DNA of 64,000 nucleotides, from positions 1,056,501 to 1,120,500 of the forward strand of contig NZ_CP072347.1 of assembly GCF_018127925.1 (NCBI RefSeq), written 5' to 3'. Under the pieces are notes generated by a model, which saw only the letters and a program-made list of their open reading frames with translations, was not told where the DNA came from and searched no databases. Position 1 is the first letter of the stretch. The number at the start of each line of letters is the position of its first letter. Positions 31,265 to 48,564 of this stretch are shown piece after piece. The position numbers were made by a program, and so were the translations under genes. Source of the stretch: Prevotella melaninogenica (lineage in GTDB: Bacteria > Bacteroidota > Bacteroidia > Bacteroidales > Bacteroidaceae).

Positions 31265-32785
31265 ATGGCAGAAAGAAGTAATAACAATAAAAGTAGTCGT
31301 AGAACCAAGCAGGCTCCTATCGACACGACGTTTGGTCACCTACAACCACAAGCAACTGACATTGAAAAGGTTGTTTTAGGTGCACTTATGATTGATAAGG
31401 ATGCCTTTACTGTTGTCTCAGAGATTATCAAACCAGAAACATTCTATGAGTCTCGTCATGAGAAAATCTATGAAGCTGTACAATCTCTGAATCTGCAGGA
31501 GAAGCCTGTAGATATTATGACCGTAGTAGAAGAACTTCGACATAAAGGAACACTTGAAGAAGTTGGTGGTCCTGCATATATCGTTGAGCTTAGCTCCAAT
31601 GTTGCTTCATCTGCACACATTGAGTATCATGCACATATTCTTGCACAAAAGTTCTTGGCACGACAACTCATCCAGTTTGCATCAATGATTGAGACTGATG
31701 CTTTCGATGAAACCGTGGATGTTGACGAGTTGATGCAGAAAGCCGAGGGTGCTCTGTTTGAGATTTCCCAGAAGAATATGCTACAAGATTATGTACAGAT
31801 TGACTCTGTCGTTGAACAAGCCCATCAATTACTTCTCAAGGCTGCAAACAATAAGGGTAGCTTAACTGGCGTACCAAGTGGTTTCCACGACTTAGACAAG
31901 ATAACAGCAGGTTGGCAGGCATCCGACTTGGTTATTATTGCTGGTCGTCCTGCCATGGGTAAGACTTCTTTTGCACTTAGTATTGCTAAAAATATTGCCA
32001 TTGACTATCGTAAGCCAATTGCGTTCTTCTCTCTTGAGATGAACAACGTACAGCTTGTCAATCGTTTAATATCAAACGTTTGTTCTGTACCTGGTAACAA
32101 GATTCTTAATGGTCAGCTAACACCTGACGAGTGGGAGCGTTTCGACTCTAACATACGAAAGATGCAGGGTGCACCGATTTATATTGACGATACACCTGGA
32201 CTTTCAATCTTCGAACTTCGTACAAAAGCGCGTCGATTGGTGCGTGAACATAATATTGAAGTGCTCATGATTGACTACTTACAGCTGATGAATGCCAATG
32301 GTATGCGCTTCAATAGCCGTCAGGAGGAGGTTTCTACTATTAGCCGTTCCTTGAAGGGACTTGCAAAAGAGCTGAACATTCCAATATTAGCACTGTCACA
32401 GTTGAGTCGTGCGGTTGAACAACGCGATCCACGTGAGGGTAAACGTCCACAGTTAAGTGACTTGCGTGAGTCTGGAGCTATCGAGCAGGATGCCGATATG
32501 GTACTCTTTGTGCATCGACCAGAGTATTATCATATTCTGCAAGATGATCATGGTAACGACCTTCATGGTATGGCTCAGATTATTATTGCCAAGCATCGTA
32601 AGGGTGCAACTGGTGATGTTCTACTCAACTTCCGTGGTGAATACACTCGTTTTGCTAATCCTGAGGATTTGGATATGGCTGCTCCAATGCCTAATGACCC
32701 ATTGGGTGGTGAGATTATTGGTAGCAAGATGAATGATGATCCTATACCACCATACCCAGGTGGGGATATGAGAGTACCCTTCTAA
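31265..32785 (+). CDS. dnaB: Replicative DNA helicase DnaB
   Basis: A 506-residue hexameric 5'-3' helicase of the replication fork. The N-terminal domain begins with QATDIEKVVLGALMID; the RecA-like domain has GFHDLDKITAGWQ, the Walker A PAMGKTSFAL, FFSLEMNN, LMIDYLQLM (Walker B) and the arginine-finger region LSRAVEQR, then LSDLRESGAIEQDAD and AKHRKGATG. The length fits with an extended N-terminus. No intein is present at the usual Walker A position. The promoter element lies directly against the start codon. Confidence 0.96.
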   Translation: MAERSNNNKSSRRTKQAPIDTTFGHLQPQATDIEKVVLGALMIDKDAFTVVSEIIKPETFYESRHEKIYEAVQSLNLQEKPVDIMTVVEELRHKGTLEEVGGPAYIVELSSNVASSAHIEYHAHILAQKFLARQLIQFASMIETDAFDETVDVDELMQKAEGALFEISQKNMLQDYVQIDSVVEQAHQLLLKAANNKGSLTGVPSGFHDLDKITAGWQASDLVIIAGRPAMGKTSFALSIAKNIAIDYRKPIAFFSLEMNNVQLVNRLISNVCSVPGNKILNGQLTPDEWERFDSNIRKMQGAPIYIDDTPGLSIFELRTKARRLVREHNIEVLMIDYLQLMNANGMRFNSRQEEVSTISRSLKGLAKELNIPILALSQLSRAVEQRDPREGKRPQLSDLRESGAIEQDADMVLFVHRPEYYHILQDDHGNDLHGMAQIIIAKHRKGATGDVLLNFRGEYTRFANPEDLDMAAPMPNDPLGGEIIGSKMNDDPIPPYPGGDMRVPF

Positions 32786-32912: not shown

Positions 32913-32981
32913 AAGTAGTTGCAAAACACTATACAAAAAGGTGCTTAATTAGACTTCAAAAGGGCATTAGTAACATTGCAA
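32913..32981 (+). repeat. Dispersed repeat, copy B (left half only)
   Basis: Matches copy A from CAAGT...CAAAACA through GTGCTTAATTAGACTTC, AAAAGGGCATTAGTAACATTG, then diverges at 32982. The missing right half is found at 50079-50165, beyond the mobile element. Confidence 0.8.
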
Positions 32982-33018
32982 GATAATTATTAAAATGTAT
33001 CTAATTGAAAATAAAGAA

Positions 33019-33060
33019 GTTACCTTATCGCATAAGCCAAACAGGTAACGATTTGGAAAC
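33019..33060. other. GTTACC/GGTAAC inverted site near the left end
   Basis: GTTACC (33019-33024) and GGTAAC (33044-33049) form a dyad. The right arm and its flank (33042-33060) match 49935-49953 at 16 of 19 bases in the same orientation, so this is probably a recombinase-binding or attachment-associated site. Confidence 0.4.
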
Positions 33061-33203
33061 GAGCGGACTACTGGGCTTCGCTGTTTTCTGCCTAACAAAG
33101 AACGCTTATTATTCTGTTTGCAAAGATAATACTTTCTTGCCGAATAATGAGCATTATGATGAGAATAAATATAAAAAAACATATAACTTAATATAGTATC
33201 ATA

Positions 33204-35096
33204 TCACTTCTGAATAGCATCTTCAAGACTTGGATAACCGCCAGAACCTCTATATACATAATTACAAAGTGTGTTGTAAATACTTTTTATGGTTTTTTCT
33301 CTTCCAACTACATATTGTGGCACATTAGAAGAGGTAATGTGAAGCAAAGGATTTGAAAAATAATCCATACCATTCAGTGTGTATTTCATCCACTCAGCAC
33401 AAAAATAAAAGTGTACCTCCGCATCTATACCATCCTTAGTGAAATGGATAAAAAATTCATTTGAAAGCGTACAATCTGCATATTGGACTAGAAATGAAAC
33501 CGATATTGTTCTCAGTTTTGAAATTTCATCAATAGCTTTTAGCAACTCACTCTTGTATATTGGAGTACGAGCATCGTGATGTGATAACGGATTGAGGATT
33601 CTCTCCCTATACATCTGTATATCTGGAGTAATATCAGGAATTCCTGTGTCTGAATAAAACTGATTGAGAGCACCCATCATGTTGGATAGTTGTTTAGGAG
33701 AAGTTTTTGGGAAAGGGGCTCTCTGAAATTCTACTGTAGCATTGAATGGTAGCAATCTTTTAAGCTGCTCTTCACATTCACGTCTTAATGCATTGGCAGA
33801 CGCAGCATAGTCACGTTGCTCATAAAAAGCTTTTGCCCTATCAATTGCATTCTGATTATCAACAAGTAGATAGTCTGGTATATTGTCTATATCATCATTC
33901 AAACTGTATAATTCCTTGAACAACCAGCTGCTATCATGTTTCTGCTGTCTAATCTTTGACCTTAGAATATCGAAGAAGGTGTAATCATGCGTGAAAAGTA
34001 GTATCTGATAATTACTTTCATAACTCAAAATAATGTCCATTACTTCAAGTCTTGTAGACATATCTAGACTAATCAGCAAATCATCGAGGAATAGTGCAGA
34101 GGCACCATCATCCTCGGCACGGTGCATAATTTCAACAACTGCAAAACGCATCGCAATGGCAAGGCAAGTAAGTTTTGCCTCATTGAAAAAGGAGCGAGGA
34201 TGTAATATGTCATTATGTCCAACAATATGGTTATGGCTGAATTCTGCCTTAACCTTTATTTTGGGAGGTAATATTTTTTTGTTATATAATACTCCTGGCC
34301 CCATCTGGACATCTGTAATCCTTGCATTCTCATAGTCCATCTGAAGTCTTGCATTCAATTTGAAGCTATTAGAAATCATCTGATTGGCCTTAGTTTCAAT
34401 TAGGGTCACATTATTCTTTATCTGTCTGTTAAATTCTTTCAGCAGTCTGGAATAACGTATGTATTCATCAGAAGTCTTCAAAATATAATGTGGATTAGAA
34501 CCTCTCTTTAGATTCTGAAGGTTATTATTTAAATACTTCCACCAGTAGTCAGCTGTCATTACAGATGATTGTGTACCATCATAGTGAATGAGTTTCATGG
34601 ATGGTTGTAAAATTAGAGCTGGGAAAATATCACTGACGAAAATATTGAAGATCTCGGGCTGCTTGCTATTTTTAAAATCGAAGATGGCAGAAAGAAACTT
34701 GTAGTTCATGAAGGTACTAGATCCTGCAGTAATGCTCATAAAAGGGTCTGTAGAAGTATTACACCTGACATTTGAGTCTTCATAAGACTTTCTACGACCG
34801 TCATCTTCAGATATAAATTCTAAATCAATACCAGACCTCTGAGTATCAGGTAAGAATTTGTTACGAAGATTTTCCGTGTTATCTGCTACAAAATATTTCT
34901 GTGCATCATCTATTGTTGGTCTTTTATAACAACTCTGAAACAAGGTATAGATAGCCCAATAGAGAGAACTCTTTCCACTACCATTCTCTCCATACAGAAG
35001 CAAATTCTTACCTTCAATATCCATCTTGAAAGGGCGATGGAAAAACTTGAAGTTTTCTATCTTTATGCTATTAATCTTCCACTTTGTCATGGTCAT
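33204..35096 (-). CDS. SMC/RecF-type AAA ATPase, candidate defence protein
   Basis: A 630-residue ATPase. The N-terminus KINSIKIENFKFF leads into Walker A (GENGSGKSS, residues 36-44). A conserved SFFNEAKLTCLAIAMRFA stands near residues 300-318, where ABC-type ATPases have the signature motif, and Walker B is ALFLDDLLISLD (Asp338-339), followed by QILLFTHDYTFF (switch His). The region between the Walker motifs is short, with no long coiled coil. The C-terminal 200 residues hold a helical part (YAASANALRRECEEQLKRLL, LNPLSHHDART) that recalls HEPN-like or ATPase-linked helical domains, but no nuclease motif is certain. ATG at 35096 or 35090; it overlaps the 243-residue partner gene by 26 bases, so translation is coupled. 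Confidence 0.75.
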   Translation of the reverse strand: MTMTKWKINSIKIENFKFFHRPFKMDIEGKNLLLYGENGSGKSSLYWAIYTLFQSCYKRPTIDDAQKYFVADNTENLRNKFLPDTQRSGIDLEFISEDDGRRKSYEDSNVRCNTSTDPFMSITAGSSTFMNYKFLSAIFDFKNSKQPEIFNIFVSDIFPALILQPSMKLIHYDGTQSSVMTADYWWKYLNNNLQNLKRGSNPHYILKTSDEYIRYSRLLKEFNRQIKNNVTLIETKANQMISNSFKLNARLQMDYENARITDVQMGPGVLYNKKILPPKIKVKAEFSHNHIVGHNDILHPRSFFNEAKLTCLAIAMRFAVVEIMHRAEDDGASALFLDDLLISLDMSTRLEVMDIILSYESNYQILLFTHDYTFFDILRSKIRQQKHDSSWLFKELYSLNDDIDNIPDYLLVDNQNAIDRAKAFYEQRDYAASANALRRECEEQLKRLLPFNATVEFQRAPFPKTSPKQLSNMMGALNQFYSDTGIPDITPDIQMYRERILNPLSHHDARTPIYKSELLKAIDEISKLRTISVSFLVQYADCTLSNEFFIHFTKDGIDAEVHFYFCAEWMKYTLNGMDYFSNPLLHITSSNVPQYVVGREKTIKSIYNTLCNYVYRGSGGYPSLEDAIQK

Positions 35097-35802
35097 GGAT
35101 TTTGTTCGCAAAAGACATCAAATTAGTAAACAGAATACGCACTTTACGTACATCGTTCATAACTTCAGTTTTATTATCAAGAAGGGCATCGAATATAGTA
35201 TTGACACCATTTTCTTTTATTTGGCTTTTATCCAAAAGAGCTTTCCAAGAATTAAATAAATTCAAGTTGACCCCCATTTCTTTTAGAGAAGGTTGCATAA
35301 TCTGAGCAATGCTTAGAGAATCACGGACATCTGTAAACATACTCAACCGAAGCTGAAAATACTTGTCGTTTATATGCTTAGAAATATTCATCGACATATC
35401 TGAAACTATTAAGGCACTGTAACCGTAAACTCTTTGAGTATCTTGGTCTTCTTTTCTAAATTCAAAGTTCAATAATTGTGTTTTTGTCAGTTTTTTTTTG
35501 AATTTCATTTTGTCCTTGCTGAAGAACAAGGCAACATATCCAGCTATACTACCAATTTCAAACATCAAATAATCATAACTCACTTTTTTCTGATAATCAG
35601 GATTAAGTCCCACATAAAGCCCATCGTCATCTCTCATTTTATTGGTAATAATCTGCGAGTTTGTTAGGAATTTTTCACAATCTATAGGAACAAAGATAAA
35701 AGGAGCCCTATTATCCATGTCCATCAAACTCCACTTCTGCTCAACTTGAGAGCGGTTGTAGACAAAGCCGATATCACCAATACGAAGCCTATCTTCAGAC
35801 AT
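35071..35802 (-). CDS. Partner protein of the ATPase, unknown function
   Basis: A 243-residue protein with no signal peptide or membrane helix. I cannot name a family with confidence. The start RIGDIGFVYNRSQ, the middle DGLYVGLNPDYQKK with YDYLMFEIGSIAGYV, and LTKTQLLNFEFR vaguely recall target recognition domains of type I restriction S subunits, which have a 'GD...', 'sDGLYVav', 'iskt.L.niei' order. The second half is helical. It has its own consensus promoter, is the first gene of the two-gene operon, and its end overlaps the ATPase gene. A DNA- or effector-recognition subunit is a reasonable guess only. Confidence 0.6.
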   Translation of the reverse strand: MSEDRLRIGDIGFVYNRSQVEQKWSLMDMDNRAPFIFVPIDCEKFLTNSQIITNKMRDDDGLYVGLNPDYQKKVSYDYLMFEIGSIAGYVALFFSKDKMKFKKKLTKTQLLNFEFRKEDQDTQRVYGYSALIVSDMSMNISKHINDKYFQLRLSMFTDVRDSLSIAQIMQPSLKEMGVNLNLFNSWKALLDKSQIKENGVNTIFDALLDNKTEVMNDVRKVRILFTNLMSFANKIHDHDKVED

Positions 35803-35829
35803 CTATCATTATAAATGTTTAATAGATTG

Positions 35830-35862
35830 CAAAGATACTGTTTTTTATCAAGAAATTGCAAA
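35830..35862 (-). promoter_or_regulatory. Promoter of the ATPase operon
   Basis: On the minus strand TTTG (35859-35862), 21 bases, then TATCTTTG (35830-35837), 28 bases before the start codon at 35802. It separates this cargo from the upstream mobilization genes. Confidence 0.7.
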
Positions 35863-35909
35863 TAAACTCGGATTTCTGCGTAATATGATGTATTCTTTAT
35901 TGCTGCGAG

Positions 35910-36968
35910 TTACATTCTCCTCCCTCGCTTCTTTCTGTTGGCTTGGTTTCTGAGTTTGCGCTGCCACGCTGTTTCTGCATAGTCATTGTCCTGTGCGGTT
36001 GGTGTAATCAAATCGCCTAACCCTTCCACAACTTCATCGGCTGCGCTAACGATGGTGTCTGCCACTGCACCAATGGAGTTCTGCACTTGTGGCGTATTAT
36101 TGTCTCGTGAGATTGAGGAACGGCTCTTTGGTACAAGCTCATAACCTGTATCAGGCAGTTCGTTCTTTTCTCTTGATTTTTGTACTGTTTGATGTAATTT
36201 CCTTGATTCTTCCCTGTTGGTTGGTTCAAAGCTTTTCTGCAAGGAACGGTAGCCGAATTCCCTGCCGATTTCGGAAGCCTTGAAGGATTGCCCTGCGTAT
36301 GAGAACTTTAAACCATAGACATTACCTTGCTTGTTCTTCATACGCTCTATAATAATGCCGTTTTTGTTCAATTCATAAAGGAACATAGAATGCCCTGTAA
36401 CGCCTGTTCCTTTGTATTTGTCAAGCAGGGAATAACAGATTTGTTGCACCACTTTCTTTGCTTGCTCTCGCGTCTGGCTGACTTTTTCCTTTTGGTATTT
36501 CCTTTCCGCCTTGACCTCCTTTGCGATGGTCAAGCCTTTCTCCCTGCTGATTTCCTCTGCCACCCTTGCAGCCCTGTTGCTCACAAAAGTGGTATCATAG
36601 ACTTCTCCATATAGGCTGATGCGGTTGGCGATGATGTGAATGTGTCTGTTGTCGGTGTCCTTGTGCGTTACCGCCACCCATTGATGGTTGTCAAGTCCCA
36701 TTCGCTTGGCAAACAAATGGGCAATCCGCATCAGTTCGGACACGGGCAGTTTTTTCTCGTCCTGCGGTGCGATGCCGATTTCGATACGGAGAAACTTGTT
36801 CCTGCAACGGCTGTTGTAGTCGCTGACCACTTTCATTTCCTCATAGATTGTCTTTGGCTCCCTGCTGCAAAGATTGTGAAAGGCAAGCCGATAGCCGAGC
36901 TTGCCATCTCTGAAAATATAGTCCAGAGCCGTACTGCCGTGCGCTATCGCCTTACATTTTCCTATCAT
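35910..36968 (-). CDS. Relaxase / mobilization protein
   Basis: A 352-residue relaxase that would nick oriT and pilot the transferred strand. It starts MIGKCKAIAHGSTALDYIF; an RIEIGIAPQDE segment is followed by HKDTDNRHIHIIANRIS, the His-rich metal motif of MobA/relaxase-family enzymes. A basic linker (ERKYQKEKVSQTREQAKK) and a helical C-terminus with YGLKFSYAGQSFKASEIG follow, and the end is very basic (QANRKKRGRRM). Its start overlaps the end of the mobC gene by 17 bases. Base composition is richer in G and C than in the chromosomal neighbours, consistent with origin in Bacteroides-like hosts. Confidence 0.9.
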   Translation of the reverse strand: MIGKCKAIAHGSTALDYIFRDGKLGYRLAFHNLCSREPKTIYEEMKVVSDYNSRCRNKFLRIEIGIAPQDEKKLPVSELMRIAHLFAKRMGLDNHQWVAVTHKDTDNRHIHIIANRISLYGEVYDTTFVSNRAARVAEEISREKGLTIAKEVKAERKYQKEKVSQTREQAKKVVQQICYSLLDKYKGTGVTGHSMFLYELNKNGIIIERMKNKQGNVYGLKFSYAGQSFKASEIGREFGYRSLQKSFEPTNREESRKLHQTVQKSREKNELPDTGYELVPKSRSSISRDNNTPQVQNSIGAVADTIVSAADEVVEGLGDLITPTAQDNDYAETAWQRKLRNQANRKKRGRRM

Positions 36969-37383
36969 CTCTTCTCATATTTAAGACCTTATATACCTCA
37001 TCATCCACACGAAAATGGGGGTCGTAAAATCGCTTAAATGCCTCTTTGGCACATAGCGAGAGGTTCTTTGTGATATGTAGCCAATCTTCGTCCTTGCCCT
37101 TGATGAGGTTGGAAACCTGCCCATAGAATCTTCCTGTATGTTGGAGGATGGCAATGGCTTCCCTCTCGTTGTCGGTCATCTTGGGGACGGCTATTATCTC
37201 GCCGTTAAGGAGTATCTCACGGCAGTAGTCGGAGAACCTCCGCCCTGTATTTTCCGCCCTTGATTTGATACGTTGCTTTTCCTCTAAGGTACATCTTACT
37301 TTGATGAACTCTGTCTTGTTCATCCGCAGTTCTTCCTTATCCTTTGGCTGCCATCGGGCAGCTTTTCCTTTGTATCTATTCAT
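36952..37383 (-). CDS. mobC: MobC-like relaxosome protein
   Basis: A 143-residue basic protein of the relaxosome accessory type, expected to bind oriT next to the relaxase. It has a ribbon-helix-helix-like start (TEFIKVRCTLEEKQRIKSRA, NTGRRFSDYCREILL) and a typical helical end (AILQHTGRFYGQVSNLIKG). It lies directly downstream of the oriT-like hairpins and overlaps the relaxase gene by 17 bases. Confidence 0.88.
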   Translation of the reverse strand: MNRYKGKAARWQPKDKEELRMNKTEFIKVRCTLEEKQRIKSRAENTGRRFSDYCREILLNGEIIAVPKMTDNEREAIAILQHTGRFYGQVSNLIKGKDEDWLHITKNLSLCAKEAFKRFYDPHFRVDDEVYKVLNMRRDDRKM

Positions 37384-37469
37384 ATAAGTTTCCTTTGAAA
37401 GTTAATCATTATAGATAATTTGTTGTTGCTTAATTTCTGAATGCTGACCGATGAGAACGGAGTGATTAC

Positions 37470-37556
37470 GGTCTTATCTCCCCGACAGTCTGACGAGGGG
37501 GAGCAAGAGCAGTTTGTGGGTACAAACTGACGTCTTGCAATGTCAGTGATAAGACC
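37470..37556. other. oriT-like nested inverted repeats
   Basis: GGTCTTATC (37470-37478) and GATAAGACC (37548-37556) enclose CTCCCC/GGGGAG (37478-37483 with 37498-37503) and a perfect 8-bp hairpin CAGTTTGT-GGGT-ACAAACTG (37510-37529). It lies in the gene-free stretch 37384-37787 upstream of mobC and the relaxase, where transfer origins of such elements are found. The nick site is not identified. Confidence 0.6.
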
Positions 37557-37658
37557 ATTTACGCACGAGGCGTTTTGCAGCCAAAAAGTGAATGCCGTGC
37601 ATTCTGTGTTTAACTGTGTTCGTGGTGTTCTCATCATTCAGATGTCTACTTGCTAAAA

Positions 37659-37718
37659 ATATGATGTCATATTTGCCCAAATATGACGTCTCATTTACGA
37701 GAATATGACATCATATTT
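37659..37718. repeat. Three 22-bp iterons
   Basis: ATATGATGTCAT (37659), ATATGACGTCTCAT (37681) and ATATGACATCAT (37703) recur at exactly 22 bp. The first and last also form an inverted pair (AATATGATGTCATATT and AATATGACATCATATT). They lie between the DUF3408 gene and the oriT-like region. Confidence 0.75.
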
Positions 37719-37787
37719 TAATGCGATAGTAGGATTAGGGCGGGAAATAAATCTTTTGAAATTCATCCCTCGCCCCCTTCCTGCGGT

Positions 37788-38216
37788 TTATAACCTTCTC
37801 CATTTCTCTATGTCCTCTCCATATTCATCCAGATGCTGACGAACGATGTTCTCCACAAAGCTTGAAAGGTTGCTGCCCCTGTCGCCTAATCTACGCACAA
37901 TAAAGTCGGCACGTTCCTGTGTCTCCCTACTCAGATAGACTGCCTTACGATTGTTTAACTTGGTCGGCACAAGATAGGCTCGCTTGTAGGCTTCGAGTGT
38001 TTTCTTTCTCATCTTGGCACTGATACGTTTCTGAACGGTTACGTTCTCAGCATTTCGTGCAGGCTCGGAGTGCATGGTATTCTCTGTATCCTGCTTGTTT
38101 GTTGGGCTTTCTCTTTCAGGAACCGCAGTCGCTTCTTGTGAAGTAGATTCGTTCTCTGTTTCATCTTCCACACCCAAGAACCACGAAAGGTCTTTGTCGC
38201 TCATCATAGTTTCCAT
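37788..38216 (-). CDS. DUF3408 protein
   Basis: A 142-residue protein typical of Bacteroides mobilizable and conjugative elements. The first 65 residues are acidic and disordered (NESTSQEATAVPERESPTNK); the DUF3408 part follows (SAKMRKKTLEAYKRAYL, KLNNRKAVYLSRETQERADF, SNLSSFVENIVRQHLDEYG) and looks like a ribbon-helix-helix DNA-binding domain. It may bind the 22-bp iterons lying next to it. It starts 2 bases after the primase gene and is in the same operon. Confidence 0.85.
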   Translation of the reverse strand: METMMSDKDLSWFLGVEDETENESTSQEATAVPERESPTNKQDTENTMHSEPARNAENVTVQKRISAKMRKKTLEAYKRAYLVPTKLNNRKAVYLSRETQERADFIVRRLGDRGSNLSSFVENIVRQHLDEYGEDIEKWRRL

Positions 38217-38218
38217 TT

Positions 38219-39193
38219 CTATTTCATTTTAAGTTTAACTTGTTTTGATTTCTTGTTTTGTCCTGTAATTGATATGTGTGTCTGTTCCTGCGCTTTCCGT
38301 TCCTGCCGCTCACGGACACGGCTGACATGATATTCATTGAGATCCTTGAAGTCTTTGTAATGTATGTTCATGTCCTCAACATGGAAGCCTGCCTTTATGA
38401 AATCTTGAACAGTCCTCCGTCCTGCTTCGTCATTGTCAAGGAAGGCACGGATATGGGTGAGGTGTCGGTCATTCAAATAACGGATAGTCCTTGCCACGTT
38501 GCTCACGGAGTTCATCACAAGGCAGTGGTTGGTAATCTCTTCTTTCATTGAAAGGAAGGAGAGGAAGTCCATGAAGCCTTCAAAGATACATACAGACTCC
38601 GCTCTATCCGTGAATATCGGAGTAATGTCCTTCGGGGCTATCGTTCCCTTGAACGTCTTGTCGTCCCGAAGCTCATAGCCGCCAGAGAGATTGGCAAAGC
38701 CAATGGCTTGATAGCGCCTGCCCCTTATCTCATAGCTGATACATTTGAGGAATGGCATAGCCTTTTCCAAGTTGATGCAACGCACCTTTGTAAGGTACTC
38801 CTGAAAATGTGGTGGCAGAGTGTCTGATATTTCAATCAGTCTCCTTGCTCCATTTACAGCCATCACAGGTTGGGAATTATTTGGCACGAAGTCATTAAGA
38901 AAACTAGATGTGCCATTATCGGAAGCGTTCTGTCCCAAACGATGGATAGCTTCCGATAGCGTGCATCCCTCCATACGCATACAGAGGTCGATTATGCTTC
39001 CGCCCCTGCCTTCGGCATAGTCTATCCAAAGGTTCTTCTCAGTGTCCACCTTAAAACTCGGATGTGTTTCCTCCCTGAGCGGTGAACAATACAGGGTATA
39101 GGCAGCAGTCCTACGTACAGGCTTGATACCCCTCCTTTCGAGATACTCCACGATGGGGTATCGCTTGATAAGTGATAAATCTTCTTCTTTCAT
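38219..39193 (-). CDS. CHC2/Toprim DNA primase of the mobile element
   Basis: A 324-residue primase-like protein. The N-terminal zinc-finger-like part has TLYCSPLREETHPSFKVD and WIDYAEGRGGSIIDLC; the second half is a Toprim domain (VCIFEGFMDFLSF with the catalytic Glu, and IRAFLDNDEAGRRT with the DxD-type acidic pair). It should prime replication of the transferred or excised element. It precedes the DUF3408 gene by 2 bases. Confidence 0.88.
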   Translation of the reverse strand: MKEEDLSLIKRYPIVEYLERRGIKPVRRTAAYTLYCSPLREETHPSFKVDTEKNLWIDYAEGRGGSIIDLCMRMEGCTLSEAIHRLGQNASDNGTSSFLNDFVPNNSQPVMAVNGARRLIEISDTLPPHFQEYLTKVRCINLEKAMPFLKCISYEIRGRRYQAIGFANLSGGYELRDDKTFKGTIAPKDITPIFTDRAESVCIFEGFMDFLSFLSMKEEITNHCLVMNSVSNVARTIRYLNDRHLTHIRAFLDNDEAGRRTVQDFIKAGFHVEDMNIHYKDFKDLNEYHVSRVRERQERKAQEQTHISITGQNKKSKQVKLKMK

Positions 39194-39375
39194 TGTTTTG
39201 ATACATTAATGGGTTGAATGATAATTATTTATGTTTGTCTGTTTTTATGGTTTTACCTTTTCCAAAGTTTTTCCCCTCCAAACTTTTTCATCTTTCTTCT
39301 TACTACATACTATTCTGTGATAAGTGATTGATAATCAGTGTTACTTTGTAGTATAAGACAATACTACACATTCTA

Positions 39376-40659
39376 CTACATTTGGCTACTACAAGTTTGA
39401 AGGAGCGGGCAGGGCAAGATTTTCCTAATCTTGTAGACATAGATGGGGCTACTACCGTTTCTTCGTTTGCTCACCTTTATGTATCCTGCTTTCTTCAAGG
39501 CTTCGCCCATCCGCTTGGCAACAAGTGGCTGGTGGGTATAAATACCCAAATAAGTGAGTATCTCCGTAGTGGTCATTAACGAATAACTTTCATCCTCCGT
39601 TGGCTTTTCAAAACAACGCAACAAAAGCTCCATCTCTGCAGTTTGTACTTGAAAGTCCTCACTCTCTCTGTATAGTTCGGCAATCTCATCATCATCAAAC
39701 CAATAGCGAAAGCCTGACTTTAACAGGGCTTTGGCTTCCGCATAGACATTGTTCATCGAGATAGCTTTTGCTCTCTCAATATCTATGGAAAGCACTTCAA
39801 AGGGCAGGAACCGTCTGCTTCCTGTAGGGTCTGTAAGAAAGTCATTGCCGTTCACTGATGCCACAAAGCTTGCCAAGTGGGGATGTTCCTCCACATACTT
39901 GTCGTAGGGCATACGGTATTTGACCATCGGGCAGGTAATGAGGTTCTTCAGCTCATTCTCATCACGTTTATTTAGAGCTTTGAGTTGATCGTCGATGTTT
40001 ACTATGAGGTTCTGTCCTATATAGGTGAGCGTGTCCTTCTCCTGTGGATATATCTTACCCGTATAGCTGTAACTGTGCAGGGCTGGCGGACAGAACAAAT
40101 CCAAGAATGTAGTTTTGAACTTGCCCTGCTCGCCCGTCAGCACGAGGCAGGTGTGGTTACGGCACTCACGGTCGTCCATTGCGTTGGCAACCACTGCCAC
40201 GATCCATTTTGTAAGATATAGTAGCCATTTTTCGTGATTGCGCACCACAACGCAACTTGCCAGTTCGGGAATGGCTTTCAGTGAAAGAGAGGAGATACTA
40301 CTATTACCTTCATCACAGCCTATATCCGCCAATGGCAATCCCTTGAAATACTCCTGTATGGGGTTGATGCGTGGAGAGAAGCTGCTCTCGATGATAGAGT
40401 ATAGATTTTCTGATGAGGTTATTATCCCGATGTCGTTGTCTATCTCCCTTCGGAGCGTGTTGATTTCATAGCGACCCACTTTTGAGAAATGAGCATCGTT
40501 CTTGCTTCGGTATTCGGTTCTTCCCAATACAGTGTTGTATCTGAACTCATAGCGAGAGGACAGATAGATTTCTATCTCACCGTTTTTTGAGGAAGTCTTT
40601 TTTCGCTTGGGCATATTGTTTCCTCCCTCCGATTTGCTTTTATCTGCATTCTTCTTCAT
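39376..40659 (-). CDS. VapE-family P-loop protein
   Basis: A 427-residue protein of the virulence-associated E (VapE) type, a D5/SF3-like ATPase found in mobile elements and phage satellites. Walker A is LTGEQGKFKTTFL; Walker B is LIVNIDDQLK; SVNGNDFLTDPTGSRRFLPFEV is the family's strongest block. The N-terminal 75 residues are basic. ATG at 40659 is preferred; an upstream ATG at 40737 would add 26 residues of poor fit. It probably acts with the primase gene 182 bases downstream. Confidence 0.88.
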   Translation of the reverse strand: MKKNADKSKSEGGNNMPKRKKTSSKNGEIEIYLSSRYEFRYNTVLGRTEYRSKNDAHFSKVGRYEINTLRREIDNDIGIITSSENLYSIIESSFSPRINPIQEYFKGLPLADIGCDEGNSSISSLSLKAIPELASCVVVRNHEKWLLYLTKWIVAVVANAMDDRECRNHTCLVLTGEQGKFKTTFLDLFCPPALHSYSYTGKIYPQEKDTLTYIGQNLIVNIDDQLKALNKRDENELKNLITCPMVKYRMPYDKYVEEHPHLASFVASVNGNDFLTDPTGSRRFLPFEVLSIDIERAKAISMNNVYAEAKALLKSGFRYWFDDDEIAELYRESEDFQVQTAEMELLLRCFEKPTEDESYSLMTTTEILTYLGIYTHQPLVAKRMGEALKKAGYIKVSKRRNGSSPIYVYKIRKILPCPLLQTCSSQM

Positions 40660-41130
40660 TATATGCTTGGTTTGGTTTCTAAGAGTGAAGTTATGAAGAG
40701 AACTGGAAAGTTCCAAGCATTCAAAGAGTGCTTGCATGATGTTGCGTTCATTCGCAATAAAGTTCGCACGTTTTTTTGAGGAGACAGGAAAAGAAATGAC
40801 TGATTTAAGCCCGAATTAAGTCAAAACAGGGGATAAAATAATAAGGAAAGACAGAGGTAGAAGTGTACCCTTTGCACACGTTTGCAGTATTCTGCACCTA
40901 TATTGCAAACAATAGAATCCGCGCAGAAATAGGGTAGCGTTTGTCCATACTAAGAGTGTTACAAGGTGTCTCTTGAACGAAGAATGATTGAATAGGACAT
41001 ACACCGCCCTATCTTTGTTTCAAACGGACGGCGAAAGAAGAAAACAGGGAAAGAATGTGCAAACAGCTGCCGATAAAATGCGTTAGCTTTTCCTTCAACT
41101 TCCCGATGTTTCCCTGCTGTTCCCTGCTGC
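40660..41130. other. Gap between VapE-like and HTH genes
   Basis: Divergent intergenic region. I see no supported gene. It should contain the VapE operon promoter on the minus strand, which I cannot place with confidence. Confidence 0.5.
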
Positions 41131-41161
41131 TTTGAAGTATGACAAACTCATTATACTTTTG
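41131..41161 (+). promoter_or_regulatory. Promoter for the HTH genes
   Basis: TTTG (41131-41134), 19 bases, then TACTTTTG (41154-41161). The leader to the ATG at 41251 is about 85 bases. Confidence 0.75.
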
Positions 41162-41250
41162 CAGGCATAAACGTGCGATGAAACGCAGAACAGACAAAGG
41201 TGTTGTCAATACCAATAAGACAGAATTACAAACAAAACAATAATAAAACT

Positions 41251-41553
41251 ATGGGATATTTTATCATTACGGATTCAAATTGGACAAGGCTCAGGAATGA
41301 GATTCTCAGCCTTGCCGAGACCTGCCACAAGGCATTCGGGGAACAGAGCAAGCATACCGATTGGCTGCACAATGGTGATGTATGCAAGTTGCTCAACATC
41401 AGCAAGCGCACATTGCAGCATTACCGGGATACAGGTGTACTTCCATTCTCTCAAATCGGGCATAAGTGCTATTACAGGCGTGAGGATGTGGAGCTATTGC
41501 TCCAAACTAAATCGGAGAAATCAAAAACGGACAAATTCATGAATAACAAATAA
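41251..41553 (+). CDS. Helix-turn-helix (excisionase-like) protein
   Basis: A 100-residue protein with a MerR/excisionase-type winged helix: WLHNGDVCKLLNISKRTLQ, HYRDTGVLPFSQIG and HKCYYRREDVELLL. Such small HTH proteins in Bacteroidota elements regulate excision or the replication and mobilization genes. The start at 41251 fits the promoter. The paralogue at 41566 follows by 12 bases. Confidence 0.85.
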   Translation: MGYFIITDSNWTRLRNEILSLAETCHKAFGEQSKHTDWLHNGDVCKLLNISKRTLQHYRDTGVLPFSQIGHKCYYRREDVELLLQTKSEKSKTDKFMNNK

Positions 41554-41565
41554 GGCGAAAGAACT

Positions 41566-41871
41566 ATGGAACAAGTAAGAGATTTGAACATGGAGGCAGA
41601 CGATATGCAGGTGGTGCTGTCCGCACTAAAAGGGGTAAGTAAGCGGATTAAGGAAGTGGCAAAGACACACAAACCGCTCTTTGGCGGTGAGCACTTTCTC
41701 ACGAGTAAAGAGGTGTGCGAAAGGCTGTACATCAGCCCTCGCACCTTGCAGGACTATCGGGATAGGGGAATTATCCCCTACACCCAGTTCGCAGGAAAAA
41801 TCCTCTATAAGGCCTCAGATTTGGAAAAGATGCTAAAAGATAATTATAGGGAACAGAAACAAGTGCCTTAG
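41566..41871 (+). CDS. Helix-turn-helix (excisionase-like) protein
   Basis: A 101-residue paralogue of the previous gene: FLTSKEVCERLYISPRTLQ, DYRDRGIIPYTQFA and GKILYKASDLEKML, after a 40-residue helical start. Two such genes in tandem are typical of these elements; one may be the excisionase (directionality factor) of the recombinases at 47241-49794. Confidence 0.85.
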   Translation: MEQVRDLNMEADDMQVVLSALKGVSKRIKEVAKTHKPLFGGEHFLTSKEVCERLYISPRTLQDYRDRGIIPYTQFAGKILYKASDLEKMLKDNYREQKQVP

Positions 41872-42082
41872 GATATTTAGATTACATTTCAAAAGTTAAA
41901 CTAATAGCTTATGATTTCACAAGTACCCTGCAAGAAGGAAGCAGCTATTCCTATGGATTTGGAAACCATAAGATGCTTTCACATAGAATCATTAACAACT
42001 TAGACTTGCGACTATAGCATTACTACTTATATTTTTCTGAGATACAGAAAAAAAACGATTTTCCCAAAAAATAACGATATTA

Positions 42083-42114
42083 TTTGCATGTATCAGATAT
42101 TGTTCGTAATTTTG
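42083..42114 (+). promoter_or_regulatory. Promoter of the arsenic operon
   Basis: TTTG (42083-42086), 20 bases, then TAATTTTG (42107-42114). The -7 element lies inside the first ArsR-type dyad (42103-42118), so repressor binding would block it. Confidence 0.75.
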
Positions 42115-42118
42115 CAAA
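42103..42118. promoter_or_regulatory. Putative ArsR operator 1
   Basis: TTCG-N8-CAAA, a degenerate form of the dyad TTCG-N8-CGAA found again at 42487 and 44028. Confidence 0.5.
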
Positions 42119-42144
42119 CAACAAACAATGATACATATAGAATA

Positions 42145-42468
42145 ATGGAAGATAAACTGCACACAACAAATCTGGAACAGATAGCTCATTTTGCCAAAGC
42201 AATGGGACATCCAACGAGGATGGCAATTCTTGCTTTCTTGGCAAAACAAGATAGTTGCTTCTTCGGTGATATTCACGAAGAACTACCTATTGCCAAAGCA
42301 ACCGTTTCGCAGCATTTGAAGGAATTGAAAGAAGCCGGCTTAATCCAGGGTGAAGTGGAAGCGCCCAAAGTCAAATATTGTATCAACAAGGATAATTGGC
42401 AAGCTGCGAAGAAGATGTTTGCAGATTTCTTTGCGCAACCCTGCAATAATAAGGGCTGTCGTAGGTGA
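42145..42468 (+). CDS. arsR: ArsR-family repressor
   Basis: A 107-residue winged-helix repressor that releases DNA on binding trivalent arsenic. The HTH is [15 protein letters not shown], then [19 protein letters not shown] and the wing [15 protein letters not shown] Cys in SCFFGDI, a Cys in YCIN and a C-terminal pair (PCNNKGCRR) could bind As(III); this differs from the CVC motif of E. coli ArsR. The ATG at 42145 follows the promoter. First gene of the arsenic operon. Confidence 0.92.
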
Positions 42469-42486
42469 TTTTTTTTGAAGAATATG

Positions 42487-42502
42487 TTCGTAGTTTTGCG
42501 AA
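42487..42502. promoter_or_regulatory. Putative ArsR operator 2
   Basis: TTCG-TAGTTTTG-CGAA, a clean dyad overlapping a TAGTTTTG -7-like element, in the gap between arsR and the ArsF-like gene. Confidence 0.55.
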
Positions 42503-42529
42503 TAACTAACAACAAAATATAAAAAAGGT

Positions 42530-42970
42530 ATGAAAAAGTGTTTATTTTTAATCGTGGCATGTTTCACCTTTATCTTTTGCAACATGAATGCAAAGGACGG
42601 AACAGATGCCCAGGCTCTAAAAAAGACGACGGTAAAGGATTATGTAGAAGTGTTGTATTTTCATGGGAAACAGCGCTGTGCCACATGTATGGCTATCGAA
42701 AGCAACACAAAAGCTACAATGAAAAAGAACTTCGCTGACCAGATAAAAAAAGGCAAGGTGACTTTTAAGGTAATAGACATCAGCAAAAAGGAAAATGAGA
42801 AGATAGCAGAAAAGTATGAGGTAACATGGTCTTCACTATTTATCGTTAGACATAAGAATGGAAAGGAAACATACAAGAATATGACTGAATTTGCTTTTGC
42901 TAATGCACGCAAATCACCAGATGTATTTAGGGCTGGTGTCGTAAAATCCGTAAATGAAATGCTGAGATAA
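42530..42970 (+). CDS. ArsF-like thioredoxin-fold exported protein
   Basis: A 146-residue protein with a signal peptide (KKCLFLIVACFTFIFCNMNA) and a thioredoxin-like domain: VEVLYFHGKQRCATCMAIE (CxxC motif), then VDISKKENEKIAEKYEV and WSSLFIVRHKNGKE. It matches the family annotated as ArsF in Bacteroidota arsenic operons, a subunit tied to reduction of nitro-aromatic arsenicals. That function is family knowledge and not shown here. Its stop shares one base with the ArsG-like start (TAATG). Confidence 0.8.
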   Translation: MKKCLFLIVACFTFIFCNMNAKDGTDAQALKKTTVKDYVEVLYFHGKQRCATCMAIESNTKATMKKNFADQIKKGKVTFKVIDISKKENEKIAEKYEVTWSSLFIVRHKNGKETYKNMTEFAFANARKSPDVFRAGVVKSVNEMLR

Positions 42971-43686
42971 TGGTGGATATGGATTGGTTACAGACATTGC
43001 TGGATAACAGTTCCACGCCTATACTGACAGCATTTCTGCTCGGACTACTGACAGCACTTTCACCTTGTCCGTTAGCAACGAACATAGCAGCTATAGGGTT
43101 TATCGGAAGAGATATTGAAAACAGGAAGCGAATATTCCGAAATGGCCTGCTTTATACGCTGGGGCGAATTCTTTCATACACCCTACTTGGTGTAATACTG
43201 ATTACTATTCTGAAAGAAGGTTCCAGTATGTTCGGCATACAAAAGACAATAGGAACGTGGGGGGAGCTTATACTTGGACCTCTTCTACTCGTAATAGGCC
43301 TGTTCATGCTTTGGGGAGATAAACTCAACCTCCCCAAGTTTGGATTCACTGGAAATCCGGAAGGTCTTGCCAGGAAAGGCGGCTGGGGTGCTCTGATGAT
43401 AGGGGTTCTGTTCGCCCTGGCTTTCTGTCCCACCAGTGGCGTGTTCTACTTCGGCATGCTGATACCGATGTCTGCCACGACCTCGGCAGGCTATCTTCTA
43501 CCCATGATATTTGCTGTCGCTACGGCTATACCGGTGCTTGCTGTTGCATGGGTTCTCGCCTTCAGCATACAACAAATGGGAAATTTTTACGGAAAGATAC
43601 AGAAAGTGCAAAAATGGGCGAACCTTATTGTAGGCGTGGTATTCATCATCATCGGCATATATTATTGCTGGATAATGTATTTGTAA
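42970..43686 (+). CDS. ArsG-like aromatic arsenical permease (CcdA/DsbD type)
   Basis: A 238-residue membrane protein with six helices of the CcdA/DsbD-transmembrane fold. The paired Cys-Pro motifs LSPCPLATN (first helix) and FCPTSGVFYFG (fourth helix) are the redox-active or substrate-passing sites. It matches the ArsG family of aminobenzylarsenical efflux permeases described beside ArsF in Bacteroidota. It may instead transfer electrons to ArsF. It overlaps the ArsF-like gene by one base, which suggests that they work together. Confidence 0.8.
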   Translation: MVDMDWLQTLLDNSSTPILTAFLLGLLTALSPCPLATNIAAIGFIGRDIENRKRIFRNGLLYTLGRILSYTLLGVILITILKEGSSMFGIQKTIGTWGELILGPLLLVIGLFMLWGDKLNLPKFGFTGNPEGLARKGGWGALMIGVLFALAFCPTSGVFYFGMLIPMSATTSAGYLLPMIFAVATAIPVLAVAWVLAFSIQQMGNFYGKIQKVQKWANLIVGVVFIIIGIYYCWIMYL

Positions 43687-43719
43687 AATGAATTTAATAA
43701 CAATAATATTTTTACTAAT

Positions 43720-43953
43720 ATGGAAATAAAAGTTTTAGGGCCGGGTTGTGCCAAATGTAAATCAACCTACAATGTAATTGAAAAGGTACTTAAAGAGAAC
43801 GACATCGATGCAAAACTCACCAAGGTGGACGACATCATGGAAATGATGAATTACAATATCATGACATCGCCAGCCGTTGTCATTGACGAAGTGGTAAAAT
43901 TGAAGGGGAAGGTACCGACAGAAAGTGAAGTAAAGGAACTTCTGGGCATCTGA
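43720..43953 (+). CDS. Small thioredoxin/glutaredoxin-like protein
   Basis: A 77-residue cytosolic redox protein: EIKVLGPGCAKCKSTY (CAKC motif) and the cis-Pro region NIMTSPAVVIDE, ending LGI. This is the minimal TM0996/MTH895-type thioredoxin. In arsenic operons such proteins probably supply electrons to a reductase or to the ArsF/ArsG pair. A strong terminator follows, so a new promoter is needed for the genes downstream. Confidence 0.88.
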   Translation: MEIKVLGPGCAKCKSTYNVIEKVLKENDIDAKLTKVDDIMEMMNYNIMTSPAVVIDEVVKLKGKVPTESEVKELLGI

Positions 43954-43976
43954 TTGACAGAATATGTTTAACCACG

Positions 43977-44016
43977 AGCGGCAGAAACAACCATTATGGT
44001 ATCTGCCGCTTTTTTT
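43977..44016 (+). terminator. Intrinsic terminator inside the arsenic cluster
   Basis: AGCGGCAGA (43977-43985) pairs perfectly with TCTGCCGCT (44002-44010), inner ACCAT/ATGGT, followed by TTTTTTC. Confidence 0.92.
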
Positions 44017-44024
44017 CAAGAACA

Positions 44025-44046
44025 TTGTTCGTATTTAAGCGAACAA
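44025..44046. promoter_or_regulatory. Putative ArsR operator 3
   Basis: TTGTTCG (44025-44031) and CGAACAA (44040-44046) form a perfect 22-bp dyad with the same N8 spacing as the other two, 12 bases before the arsP-like ATG. Confidence 0.65.
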
Positions 44047-44058
44047 AAAAAGACTTCT

Positions 44059-45027
44059 ATGATACAAGAATTTGCAGACAGGCTTGTTTACGGACTGTTC
44101 GGACTAAGTGCCGACACACCGATAGGAATTGCCGTAAACTTTTTCTTTTATGATACGATAAAAATACTTATCCTTTTGTTCTTCATCAGCGTATTGATGG
44201 GAATTATCAACGCCTACTTCCCAATTGAACGTTTGAGAAAATATCTGGTTACACACAATATGTACGGATTGCAGTACTTGCTGGCTTCCATATTCGGAGC
44301 GGTCACTCCTTTCTGTTCATGTTCTTCCATTCCTCTGTTTATCGGATTTGTAAAGGGCGGCATTCCTTTGGGCGTAACATTCGCATTTCTTATCACATCA
44401 CCGTTGGTAAACGAGGTGGCTGTTGCTATGTTCCTTGGCTCCTTCGGATTGAAGGTGACTCTTATCTACGTCATCAGCGGCATTCTGTTAGGAGTAATAG
44501 GCGGTATAGTACTCGGTCGCATGCGCCTTGCTCCTTATCTGAGTGACTGGGTAAAGCAGATGCAGGCAAATTCATCCGCTCAGGCAGGGGAATGGGAAAA
44601 AGACCATACCACCTTTACCAAGAGGCTTCCCACTATTATCCGTGATGCATGGAAAATTGTCAGTGGTGTACTTATATATATTCTGATAGGTATAGGTATC
44701 GGTGCTTTCATGCATGGCTTTGTTCCTGAAGGATTCTTTGAGCAATACATGTCAAAAGACAACTGGTATGCAGTTCCTTTGTCTGTTATACTTGCCGTAC
44801 CGATGTATGCTAATGCCGCAGGTATCGTCCCAGTAATCGAGGTATTTGTAGCGAAAGGCATTCCCATCGGAACGGCGATAGCCTTCATGATGGCTGTCGT
44901 TGGTCTTTCCTTGCCAGAGGCAACACTGCTCAAGAAAGTAATGACATGGAGACTTATCGGCATATTCTTCGGCACTGTGACGTTTTTCATCATCTTGTCC
45001 GGCTATCTGTTTAATTATATTCTATAA
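44059..45027 (+). CDS. arsP: ArsP-like permease
   Basis: A 322-residue permease with about eight membrane helices, of the DUF318/ArsP family, whose studied members export trivalent organoarsenicals such as methylarsenite or reduced roxarsone. Family blocks: GAVTPFCSCSSIPLFIGF (conserved Cys pair), FAFLITSPLVNEVAVAMF, and PMYANAAGIVPVIE near the end. The ATG at 44059 lies just after operator 3; the frame is open upstream to 43996 through the terminator. Substrate specificity is inferred from family and context. Confidence 0.85.
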   Translation: MIQEFADRLVYGLFGLSADTPIGIAVNFFFYDTIKILILLFFISVLMGIINAYFPIERLRKYLVTHNMYGLQYLLASIFGAVTPFCSCSSIPLFIGFVKGGIPLGVTFAFLITSPLVNEVAVAMFLGSFGLKVTLIYVISGILLGVIGGIVLGRMRLAPYLSDWVKQMQANSSAQAGEWEKDHTTFTKRLPTIIRDAWKIVSGVLIYILIGIGIGAFMHGFVPEGFFEQYMSKDNWYAVPLSVILAVPMYANAAGIVPVIEVFVAKGIPIGTAIAFMMAVVGLSLPEATLLKKVMTWRLIGIFFGTVTFFIILSGYLFNYIL

Positions 45028-45099
45028 TATGTAGAAATTCCTTCCAAAAAGCATTCAAACTATATAGTAAGTCAAATCCCCAAATTTAAAAATAAAAAG

Positions 45100-45528
45100 A
45101 TGAAAGTATTGATTCTTTGTACAGGAAACAGCTGCCGTAGCCAAATGGCTCATGGCTTTCTACAGTCATTCGACAAAAATATAGAAGTGTATTCTGGTGG
45201 AACGGTACCAGCGAAACAAGTAAACGCCAAGGCGGTGGAAGTAATGAAAGAAGCCAGAATAAACATTGCCTCACATGTCCCAACACATGTTAATACCTAT
45301 CTTGACAAGGAATGGCATTACGTAATAACCGTTTGCGGTGGTGCAAACGAAAGTTGTCCTATGTTTACAGGTAAAGTAAGAAACAGGCTGCATATAGGGT
45401 TTGACGATCCCTCGGAAGCAACCGGAAGTCCCGAGTTTATCAACAGTGAGTTCCATCGGGTACGGGATGAAATTAAAGCCTGTTTCTATGACTTCTACCT
45501 GAACGAATTAAAACCACAATTAAAATAA
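45100..45528 (+). CDS. arsC: Arsenate reductase (LMW phosphatase type)
   Basis: A 142-residue thioredoxin-linked arsenate reductase of the low-molecular-weight phosphatase fold. The P-loop ILCTGNSCRSQMAHG holds Cys7 and Cys12, and VCGGANESCP holds the further Cys pair for the disulfide relay. FDDPSEATGS has the general acid Asp. It converts arsenate to arsenite for export by Acr3, whose gene follows by 12 bases. Confidence 0.95.
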   Translation: MKVLILCTGNSCRSQMAHGFLQSFDKNIEVYSGGTVPAKQVNAKAVEVMKEARINIASHVPTHVNTYLDKEWHYVITVCGGANESCPMFTGKVRNRLHIGFDDPSEATGSPEFINSEFHRVRDEIKACFYDFYLNELKPQLK

Positions 45529-45540
45529 ATAGATATTGTT

Positions 45541-46593: not shown

Positions 46594-46827
46594 AGGCAAT
46601 TGCATAATAAGAAGATATAATAAAGGTAAGATACCTAAATATTATGCCCCCAAAGGGCTAAACGGCTCTCAGTTATTCCCATATAAGATAGAATGTAGTC
46701 ATAGGGTAGTAATTTTCATTTCTTGTTCTAACTACATTATAACCCTTTTTCTTTCACTGCCTTATCTCTTGTTGTAGTAAGTAGTAGGATAATATCGGTG
46801 AAAGAAAAAGGAAATCAATACAGATTA
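46594..46827. other. Gap after the arsenic operon
   Basis: No gene or strong terminator is visible between acr3 and the convergent hypothetical gene. Confidence 0.4.
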
Positions 46828-47244
46828 TCAGTTATCCGTGCTGCCAAGCAGAAATATCGGTGTTATCACGGATGCAGGTTTCTGCAACCTCTCACAAAGA
46901 TACTTCCTGAACAAATGCGCTTCTGTGCTGTCCAACTGAAAAGACATGGCAATGATGATTGGAAGCGGATAGAACGGAGCATAACCTTTTAGTTGTTTGT
47001 TTGCATAAATATTTTCCTCGCCTGCACTCCTTTCATCGGGGTGCAGATTGGAAGACTTCACCAATATTTGCAGTCTGTAATTGAGTTTTCTCCATGTTAC
47101 ACCGAAGAAACTCACGAGTTCGTTCTCCGTCATGGCTATGTCTCCGTTTCCTTTTCTGACAACCTGCATATTGCTGCCCCAATCAAAGATACTGCGATGA
47201 CAGGCAATGTTTGTTACGGCTTTTAAGTTATCGTTTGCTTTCAT
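46828..47244 (-). CDS. Small protein coupled to the recombinase gene
   Basis: A 138-residue soluble protein. The middle has a helix-turn-helix-like part (MTENELVSFFGVTWRKLNYR), the rest is not recognised. Its ATG overlaps the stop codon of the recombinase gene as ATGA, so its translation depends on the recombinase. Genes of this kind often follow recombinases in Bacteroides elements; it may be an accessory or directionality factor. Confidence 0.65.
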   Translation of the reverse strand: MKANDNLKAVTNIACHRSIFDWGSNMQVVRKGNGDIAMTENELVSFFGVTWRKLNYRLQILVKSSNLHPDERSAGEENIYANKQLKGYAPFYPLPIIIAMSFQLDSTEAHLFRKYLCERLQKPASVITPIFLLGSTDN

Positions 47245-48536: not shown

Positions 48537-48564
48537 AATGATTTTAGTTTTAATATGTCTATTG

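Follow-up and report, generated by a model that had tools for sequence, protein, structure and literature searches.

A two-gene system of 2.6 kb, carried by a mobilizable element of Prevotella melaninogenica, is probably a mobile and compact module for abortive infection, similar in kind to PrrC/RloC, a reading that we hold with some confidence. The system lies in a 64,000-nucleotide stretch (contig NZ_CP072347.1, positions 1,056,501 to 1,120,500), termed the window here, and coordinates refer to that stretch. The larger protein, P0001, would be an ATP-binding cassette (ABC) ATPase fused to a HEPN-like ribonuclease (RNase) domain, and the smaller, P0002, a methyltransferase-free tail partner that silences it. 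The features concerned are:

33204..35096, minus strand: P0001, ABC-ATPase with a C-terminal HEPN-like domain, 630 amino acids (open reading frame, ATG at 35096)
35071..35802, minus strand: P0002, small partner, 243 amino acids (open reading frame)
33498..33875, minus strand: HEPN-like domain of P0001, residues 408-533, predicted RNase (invariant triad, model helices)
35830..35862, minus strand: match to a Bacteroidales-type promoter, TTTG-N21-TATCTTTG (pattern search)

Both open reading frames (ORFs) are intact, with P0002 upstream and an overlap of 26 bases, and they lie where an earlier note, made from the sequence alone, had placed them. An alternative in-frame start of P0001 at 35111 would give 635 amino acids. 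The promoter that the note assigned to the pair is also found. The match, to a pattern that we take to be the Bacteroidales promoter consensus, lies 27 bases from the start codon of P0002; the pattern occurs 11 times in the window against 2.96 expected, and none of 100 shuffles reaches 11. The pair is more AT-rich than the mobilization genes, again as described in the note (GC content 0.354 vs 0.467 for the relaxase and NikA-like genes). These ORFs are not paired by chance, because both proteins are identical in another Prevotella and because members of the ATPase family elsewhere have a partner at the same place.

The ATPase has the motifs by which it had been recognized, namely Walker A (GENGSGKSS, residues 36-44), FFNEAKL (303-309) and Walker B (LFLDD, 335-339), and residues G36, K42, N305, E306, D338, D339, D345 and R349 are unchanged in 90/90 aligned relatives. 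In the predicted model, residues 6-420 form a head of the SMC/Rad50/RecF type by structure search, in which the longest helix spans residues 210-243. No CxxC was found in a motif check of the whole P0001 sequence. The PADLOC models of 2023 match the ATPase partially, mostly around Walker A (best 25 of 54 matches listed).

Two relatives of the ATPase depart from this plan. The Thiospirochaeta protein (L005:7596-9338) has about 135 extra N-terminal residues that look EVE-like by eye, with no Pfam support. In genome G337, of the same genus, the gene is in two parts on opposite strands, of 198 and 399 amino acids (L135:1525-3236 and L143:395-2106), with a 13-nucleotide perfect inverted repeat near the ends (L135 1503-1515 and 2646-2658; 14 inverted pairs were found). 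This split gene looks inverted, and may represent phase variation or decay.

The evidence for an effector lies in the C-terminal domain. Its sole invariant columns in 81 relatives are R438, E442 and H506 (Arg438-x3-Glu442...His506), and over the non-gap rows of all 90 aligned sequences the three are conserved in 89/89, 89/89 and 88/88, respectively. The analysis of the domain covers 81 of the 90 rows, as two were too short and seven (L070, L077, L079, L082, L083, L099 and L101) were dropped for long inserts or gaps; the triad is present in these seven, except for a gap at N502 in L101. The P0001 triad, R438-x3-E442-x63-H506 with S505 before the histidine, matches, as a sequence pattern, the arrangement published for the anticodon-nuclease triad of PrrC/RloC, which in RloC is given as Arg-X3-Glu-Xn-(Ser)His with X36-52 in the accessible text of PMC2610378. 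The Glu-to-His spacing ranges from 49 to 131 over 88 rows, with a median of 62. In the model, helices of the domain are predicted at residues 417-426, 430-448, 470-484, 490-499 and 515-530. The earlier note had proposed the C-terminal helices as the effector, which this likeness to known nucleases supports by analogy; the view that the pair lacks a recognizable effector signature is not supported, as the triad is there.

The ATPase family recurs with a characteristic partner. Loci of relatives comprise the best 80 of at least 260 confirmed from species genomes, plus others, and in each the longest ORF on the same strand with its end near the ATPase start was taken as the partner. A same-direction partner is found directly upstream in 96 of 101 loci by this script rule (the window and its copies included, many loci cut by contig ends), an adjacency that is partly by construction because of how the partner was chosen. 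Spacing between partner and ATPase is -17 to +90 nucleotides among 72 scanned partners. Pfam was run on 74 partners in two sets (44 + 30): 70 carry TaqI_C, which is the domain that confers specificity in TaqI-like methyltransferases, 59 an Eco57I methyltransferase and ten TPR repeats, which leaves four without TaqI_C and 15 without Eco57I. With PADLOC, 42 of 44 partners match the REase_MTase_IIG model and 36 the PglX model. Because only the best 80 of at least 260 loci were fetched, these counts are not frequencies in nature. The pair does have relatives, then: its ATPase is a member of a family that is coupled to TaqI_C proteins, for the most part methyltransferases of the Eco57I/type IIG-like sort.

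The records in the tree are labelled Bacteroidota, Chlorobiota, Campylobacterota, Thermodesulfobacteriota, Latescibacterota, Poribacteria, Gemmatimonadota and Bacillota; the labels are given as recorded, many of the records being metagenome bins, and two Bacillota bins that sit among Bacteroidales are doubtful. Plasmid matches extend the list to a spirochaete and to a cyanobacterium with TaqI_C. The full methyltransferase is present in most of the Bacteroidota partners scanned. The 15 partners without Eco57I are ten TPR proteins, the Nostoc and Desulfonema proteins (338 and 386 amino acids, both with TaqI_C), those of Thiospirochaeta and X. ruminicola D31d (285 and 864 amino acids, neither with a Pfam match) and a Nonlabens neighbour, a GmrSD/HNH gene (L096) that is doubtful as a true partner and is counted among both the four and the 15. 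An NPP-type methyltransferase motif is found in none of the 15. The five partners without Eco57I in the second set are presumed to be its five TPR proteins; the five second-set rows without the NPP-type motif are L085, L086, L090, L097 and L098, and L095 also lacks the motif, although it is included in the Eco57I count. On the tree, one change suffices for the ten TPR loci and two changes are required for the TaqI_C-only or short partners of Nostoc, Desulfonema and Thiospirochaeta; the tree is midpoint-rooted, L005 has a long branch and X. ruminicola D31d is not labelled.

A TIR domain is present in four of the five TPR partners with listed domain tables. These four are TIR-TPR-TaqI_C fusions with the methyltransferase replaced (L076, L078, L084 and L094, from Poribacteria, Latescibacteria and Gemmatimonadota), and the L089 partner is TPR-TaqI_C with no TIR match. 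At L081:7422-8633 (Latescibacteria), a separate TIR gene lies directly downstream of the ATPase and the upstream partner keeps its methyltransferase. Also downstream of the ATPase, the gene at L033:7882-9012 weakly matches CTD7 of ABC-three-component systems (E 4e-4, below the cut-off), and genes of the same length, 376 amino acids, occur in L012, L015, L048 and L055. Among 37 downstream genes, PADLOC matches are to Lamassu LmuA in four and to Argonaute-associated REase models in three (with no control set); these are hints of defence neighbourhoods.

Left out of the partner scan were partners cut by a contig end or flank (L009, L011-L015, L017, L018, L020, L031, L035, L057, L079, L082, L087, L092, L123 and L126-L134), loci that yielded no upstream ORF (L010, L036 and L091), broken or split loci (L016, L019, L021, L135 and L143), loci of the window type (L001, L002, L007, L008, L022, L129 and L130), the distant L006, the near-copy L121, the second ATPases in L070, L071 and L095 and the partial matches L136-L142. 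The L039 partner, of 613 amino acids with NPPY, is uncut and is outside the scanned set.

In the usual partners the TaqI_C domain is followed by a helical tail, to which residues ~120-225 of P0002 bear a weak resemblance. The match runs collinearly and, as in relatives, reaches its end next to the ATPase gene. Three hidden Markov models (HMMs) cut down from the partner C-terminus, to the stretch behind the recognition domain or at its end, point weakly to this likeness. The tail-only HMM gives P0002 10.3 bits, with 0/1000 shuffles and 5/642 natural ORFs as good; with the helix of the LNS motif added, the figures are 0/1000 and 6/642, and for a longer HMM 5/1000 and 6/642. In a free MAFFT alignment, IGS of P0002 (residues 83-85) falls on the LNS motif and FTDVRDSLSIAQ on FExIIDxxVYEL. 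The ATPase nearest to P0001 in the tree is that of L014, with a support value (SH-aLRT) of 99; its sequence equals that of L030 (X. ruminicola D31d), which was removed as a duplicate. The L030 partner, which shows neither a Pfam match nor an NPP-type motif and was itself included in the set behind the tail HMMs, has a C-terminus 21% identical to P0002 residues 150-224, with 8/2000 shuffles and 2/642 natural ORFs as good; those two ORFs are fragments of a usual partner, from L019 and L021. For P0002, the predicted model is good over residues 70-243. The earlier note had suggested that P0002 is a recognition unit. A relation to the C-terminal end of restriction-modification (R-M) recognition proteins is retained from this, on weak statistics; a full recognition unit is not, as only the tail has sequence support, and likeness to a whole type I S subunit was not confirmed.

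The pair forms a discrete cargo at the left end of a mobilizable element, where the earlier note had put it. Two further features define this setting:

32973..33164, no strand: left end region of the mobilizable element, common to copies without the pair (blastn to L124 and L125)
35910..37383, minus strand: relaxase and NikA-like mobilization genes, context outside the module (Pfam)

Prevotella nigrescens F0103 and Prevotella sp. oral taxon 299 have the same element backbone and no pair. In these copies the region 32973-33164 is followed by ~65 other bases and then by 35928 or 35918 (blastn), so that ~2.75 kb including the pair is missing. Prevotella sp. HJM029 has the element with the pair, and P0001 and P0002 are both 100% identical there. 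Every base of window positions 33068-36100 is identical in HJM029 except for one extra base at 33172, and the mobilization genes beyond (36301-37500, in six 200-base steps) show 84-91% identity. Because an identical tract lies beside a diverged backbone, the cargo appears to have moved recently, most simply via recombination between elements. Among 399 genomes of the family searched, P0002 is found in two and an ATPase of the P0001 family in 14, the window's own genome included in both counts. Neighbours at 35910-41871 are mobilization and replication genes and helix-turn-helix proteins (Pfam); on the other flank, a dnaB-like gene at 31265-32785 lies outside the element, as judged by eye. The same element carries an apparent arsenic-resistance operon (42088-46593), which is so annotated in P. 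nigrescens F0103, and two ORFs that resemble tyrosine recombinases by eye (47241-49794). F0103 is 96% identical to the window over 37778-47305.

A mechanism can be proposed in which P0001 is an ABC-ATPase fused to a putative HEPN-like RNase domain and P0002 is what remains of a TaqI_C-type recognition protein, a methyltransferase-free partner cut back to the C-terminal end. In the resting cell, P0002 would dock on P0001 via its helical tail and keep the RNase silent. A signal of infection, which could be a change in DNA or in nucleotide pools or the binding of a phage anti-restriction protein to the partner, would change the state of the ATPase and free the RNase. The freed RNase would cut transfer RNA (tRNA), by analogy in the anticodon loop, and translation would stop. 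As P0002 without a methyltransferase cannot mark self DNA, simple sensing of unmodified sites would poison the host itself if no other enzyme protected them. The genome itself has no Pfam TaqI_C match at E ≤0.001, and five Eco57I-like matches, four of them above the cut-off and none inside the window. A phage protein, DNA damage or nucleotide pools are favoured as the trigger over unmodified sites. That the two genes form an ATPase-plus-partner module, probably anti-phage, is what the earlier note had suggested, and it is supported by analogy.

Several results weigh against this reading. The Glu-to-His spacing in the family mostly exceeds the published range for RloC. Pfam matches in the C-terminal domain are weak (at E ≤0.5, DUF4145 in 22/81 members, best 1e-3, and HEPN in 8/81, best 2.5e-4), and TPR_8 also appears in 9/81; the C-terminal domain of P0001 itself has no Pfam match at E ≤0.5, and a profile of the domain compared with PDB sequences found no HEPN chain. 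Searches with P0002 gave identical copies as its only clear homologues, and Pfam found no TaqI_C in it at E ≤1. An HMM that covers the C-terminal 480 residues of usual partners missed P0002 (147/1000 shuffles and 40/642 natural ORFs were as good), and the three cut-down HMMs were built after this failure was seen. The P0002 model rests on an alignment that presupposes homology and is poor over residues 1-65, and in a structure search no PDB fold matches it. Because the tail matches are weak, the model assumes homology and a PDB fold is lacking, P0002 is taken as a tail-like docking protein with moderate confidence; that it carries a recognition domain is only a possibility.

Other explanations have to be weighed. 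The pair could be a decoy guardian, that is, an R-M methyltransferase cut to its docking tail and a short remnant that neither methylates nor restricts, and that either baits the anti-restriction factors of phages or is a lock opened by attack on R-M-type machinery, firing the ABC-HEPN RNase. This is a tentative idea that we consider rather unlikely; if it holds, the same step would have been taken repeatedly, in several phyla, to give the partners without a methyltransferase, with or without TPR/TIR. A small gene that overlaps a larger one downstream, together with the mobile setting, also suits a plain toxin-antitoxin pair that stabilizes the element, for which a methyltransferase is not needed: P0001 would be an RNase toxin and P0002 its neutralizer, with no phage sensing. 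The biochemistry overlaps with that of a guardian module; however, the ATPase head and the R-M type partner of relatives suggest regulated sensing, not simple addiction, and the toxin-antitoxin explanation is unlikely. Slightly less likely again is a DNA-acting system such as Wadjet, Lamassu or Septu, in which P0002 recognizes DNA, the ATPase loads on or processes foreign DNA and the C-terminal helices are structural. The best structural matches of the head are DNA-handling SMC/Rad50/RecF proteins, RecF among them, retron PtuA also appears, and the partners in relatives are DNA-recognition proteins. However, the triad is as conserved as the Walker residues, which is unexpected for a purely structural domain, and P0001 and P0002 match no DNase family in Pfam, PADLOC, NCBIfam or PHROGs among the matches listed (PADLOC best 25 of 54).

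It is also conceivable, but improbable, that the pair is a decayed relic, passive cargo whose methyltransferase part was deleted. The full methyltransferase in most Bacteroidota partners scanned fits such decay, as does the lack of a confident fold in the first 65 residues of P0002. On the other side, both ORFs are intact, a promoter match and the motif residues are kept, the pair is identical in a second Prevotella by recent exchange, and other lineages also retain partners without a methyltransferase. Finally, a house-keeping DNA repair ATPase of the RecF/RecN type is very improbable. RecF is among the best structural matches of the head and TIGR00611 (RecF) matches P0001 with E 2.5e-8, but at 33.5 bits against a cut-off of 172, and the patchy distribution (14/399 genomes), the mobile setting and R-M type partners do not suit repair.

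The relatives of the ATPase make up an ABC-ATPase family with a PrrC-like triad that is wired to TaqI_C proteins, mostly Eco57I/type IIG-like, in genomes labelled with at least eight phyla. In some lineages the methyltransferase is gone and the partner position stays. The analysis thereby names an ATPase family that PADLOC models of 2023 match only partially, and a minimal two-gene system offers a direct way to ask what a guardian RNase senses.

PrrC is the textbook second-line defence that watches over a restriction enzyme, and its known wiring is to type I R-M. It is described, in the accessible parts of PMC3710099 and PMC12707154, as kept silent by the R-M partner and as firing once that partner is inhibited by a phage. 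PrrC with EcoprrI (type IC R-M) resembles the window pair in having an ABC-ATPase followed by an R-x3-E...H domain, a DNA-recognition/methylation protein encoded beside it and, as in P0001, no zinc-hook motif. The partner differs, being HsdMSR for PrrC, a 243-amino-acid tail-like protein here and a TaqI_C protein, mostly Eco57I/type IIG, in relatives. The Glu-to-His spacing is 31 in PrrC, by residue numbers in the accessible text of PMC2610378, and 63 in P0001, which also has an extra C-terminal part of ~100 residues (533-630); tRNA cleavage by P0001 is predicted by analogy. RloC likewise combines an ABC-ATPase with the Arg-X3-Glu-Xn-(Ser)His domain and, as far as that text describes, is mostly without an R-M partner (PMC2610378). 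P0001 lacks the CXXC zinc hook/coiled-coil insert of RloC and has a wider triad spacing, and its family has an R-M type partner directly upstream.

PARIS (AriA/AriB), Septu (PtuA/PtuB) and Gabija share the plan of an ATPase with a partner on mobile DNA; PARIS is described as guarding R-M and cutting tRNA in the available portions of PMC12707154 and PMC12839542. Like the earlier note, we find no HNH or Toprim: the HNH nuclease of PtuB has no match in either window protein, and neither HNH, Toprim nor helicase families are among the matches of P0002 (Pfam, PADLOC, NCBIfam and PHROGs) or the listed matches of P0001, beyond generic GajA/AriA ATPase matches. The BREX PglX/type IIG models match partners in relatives; no PglZ or BrxC lies beside the window module among the genes scanned, and the module has no methyltransferase. 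The general plan of an ABC-ATPase with HEPN beside R-M genes was described in 2013 (PMC3710099), and ABC-HEPN proteins in R-M operons are to that extent already known. The accessible part of that description does not mention TaqI_C/Eco57I coupling or a methyltransferase-free partner, and neither was found in the literature searched, which did not cover the principal classification of conflict-system ABC ATPases. Set against these systems, the window pair is best read as a methyltransferase-free variant of the PrrC-type R-M guardians.

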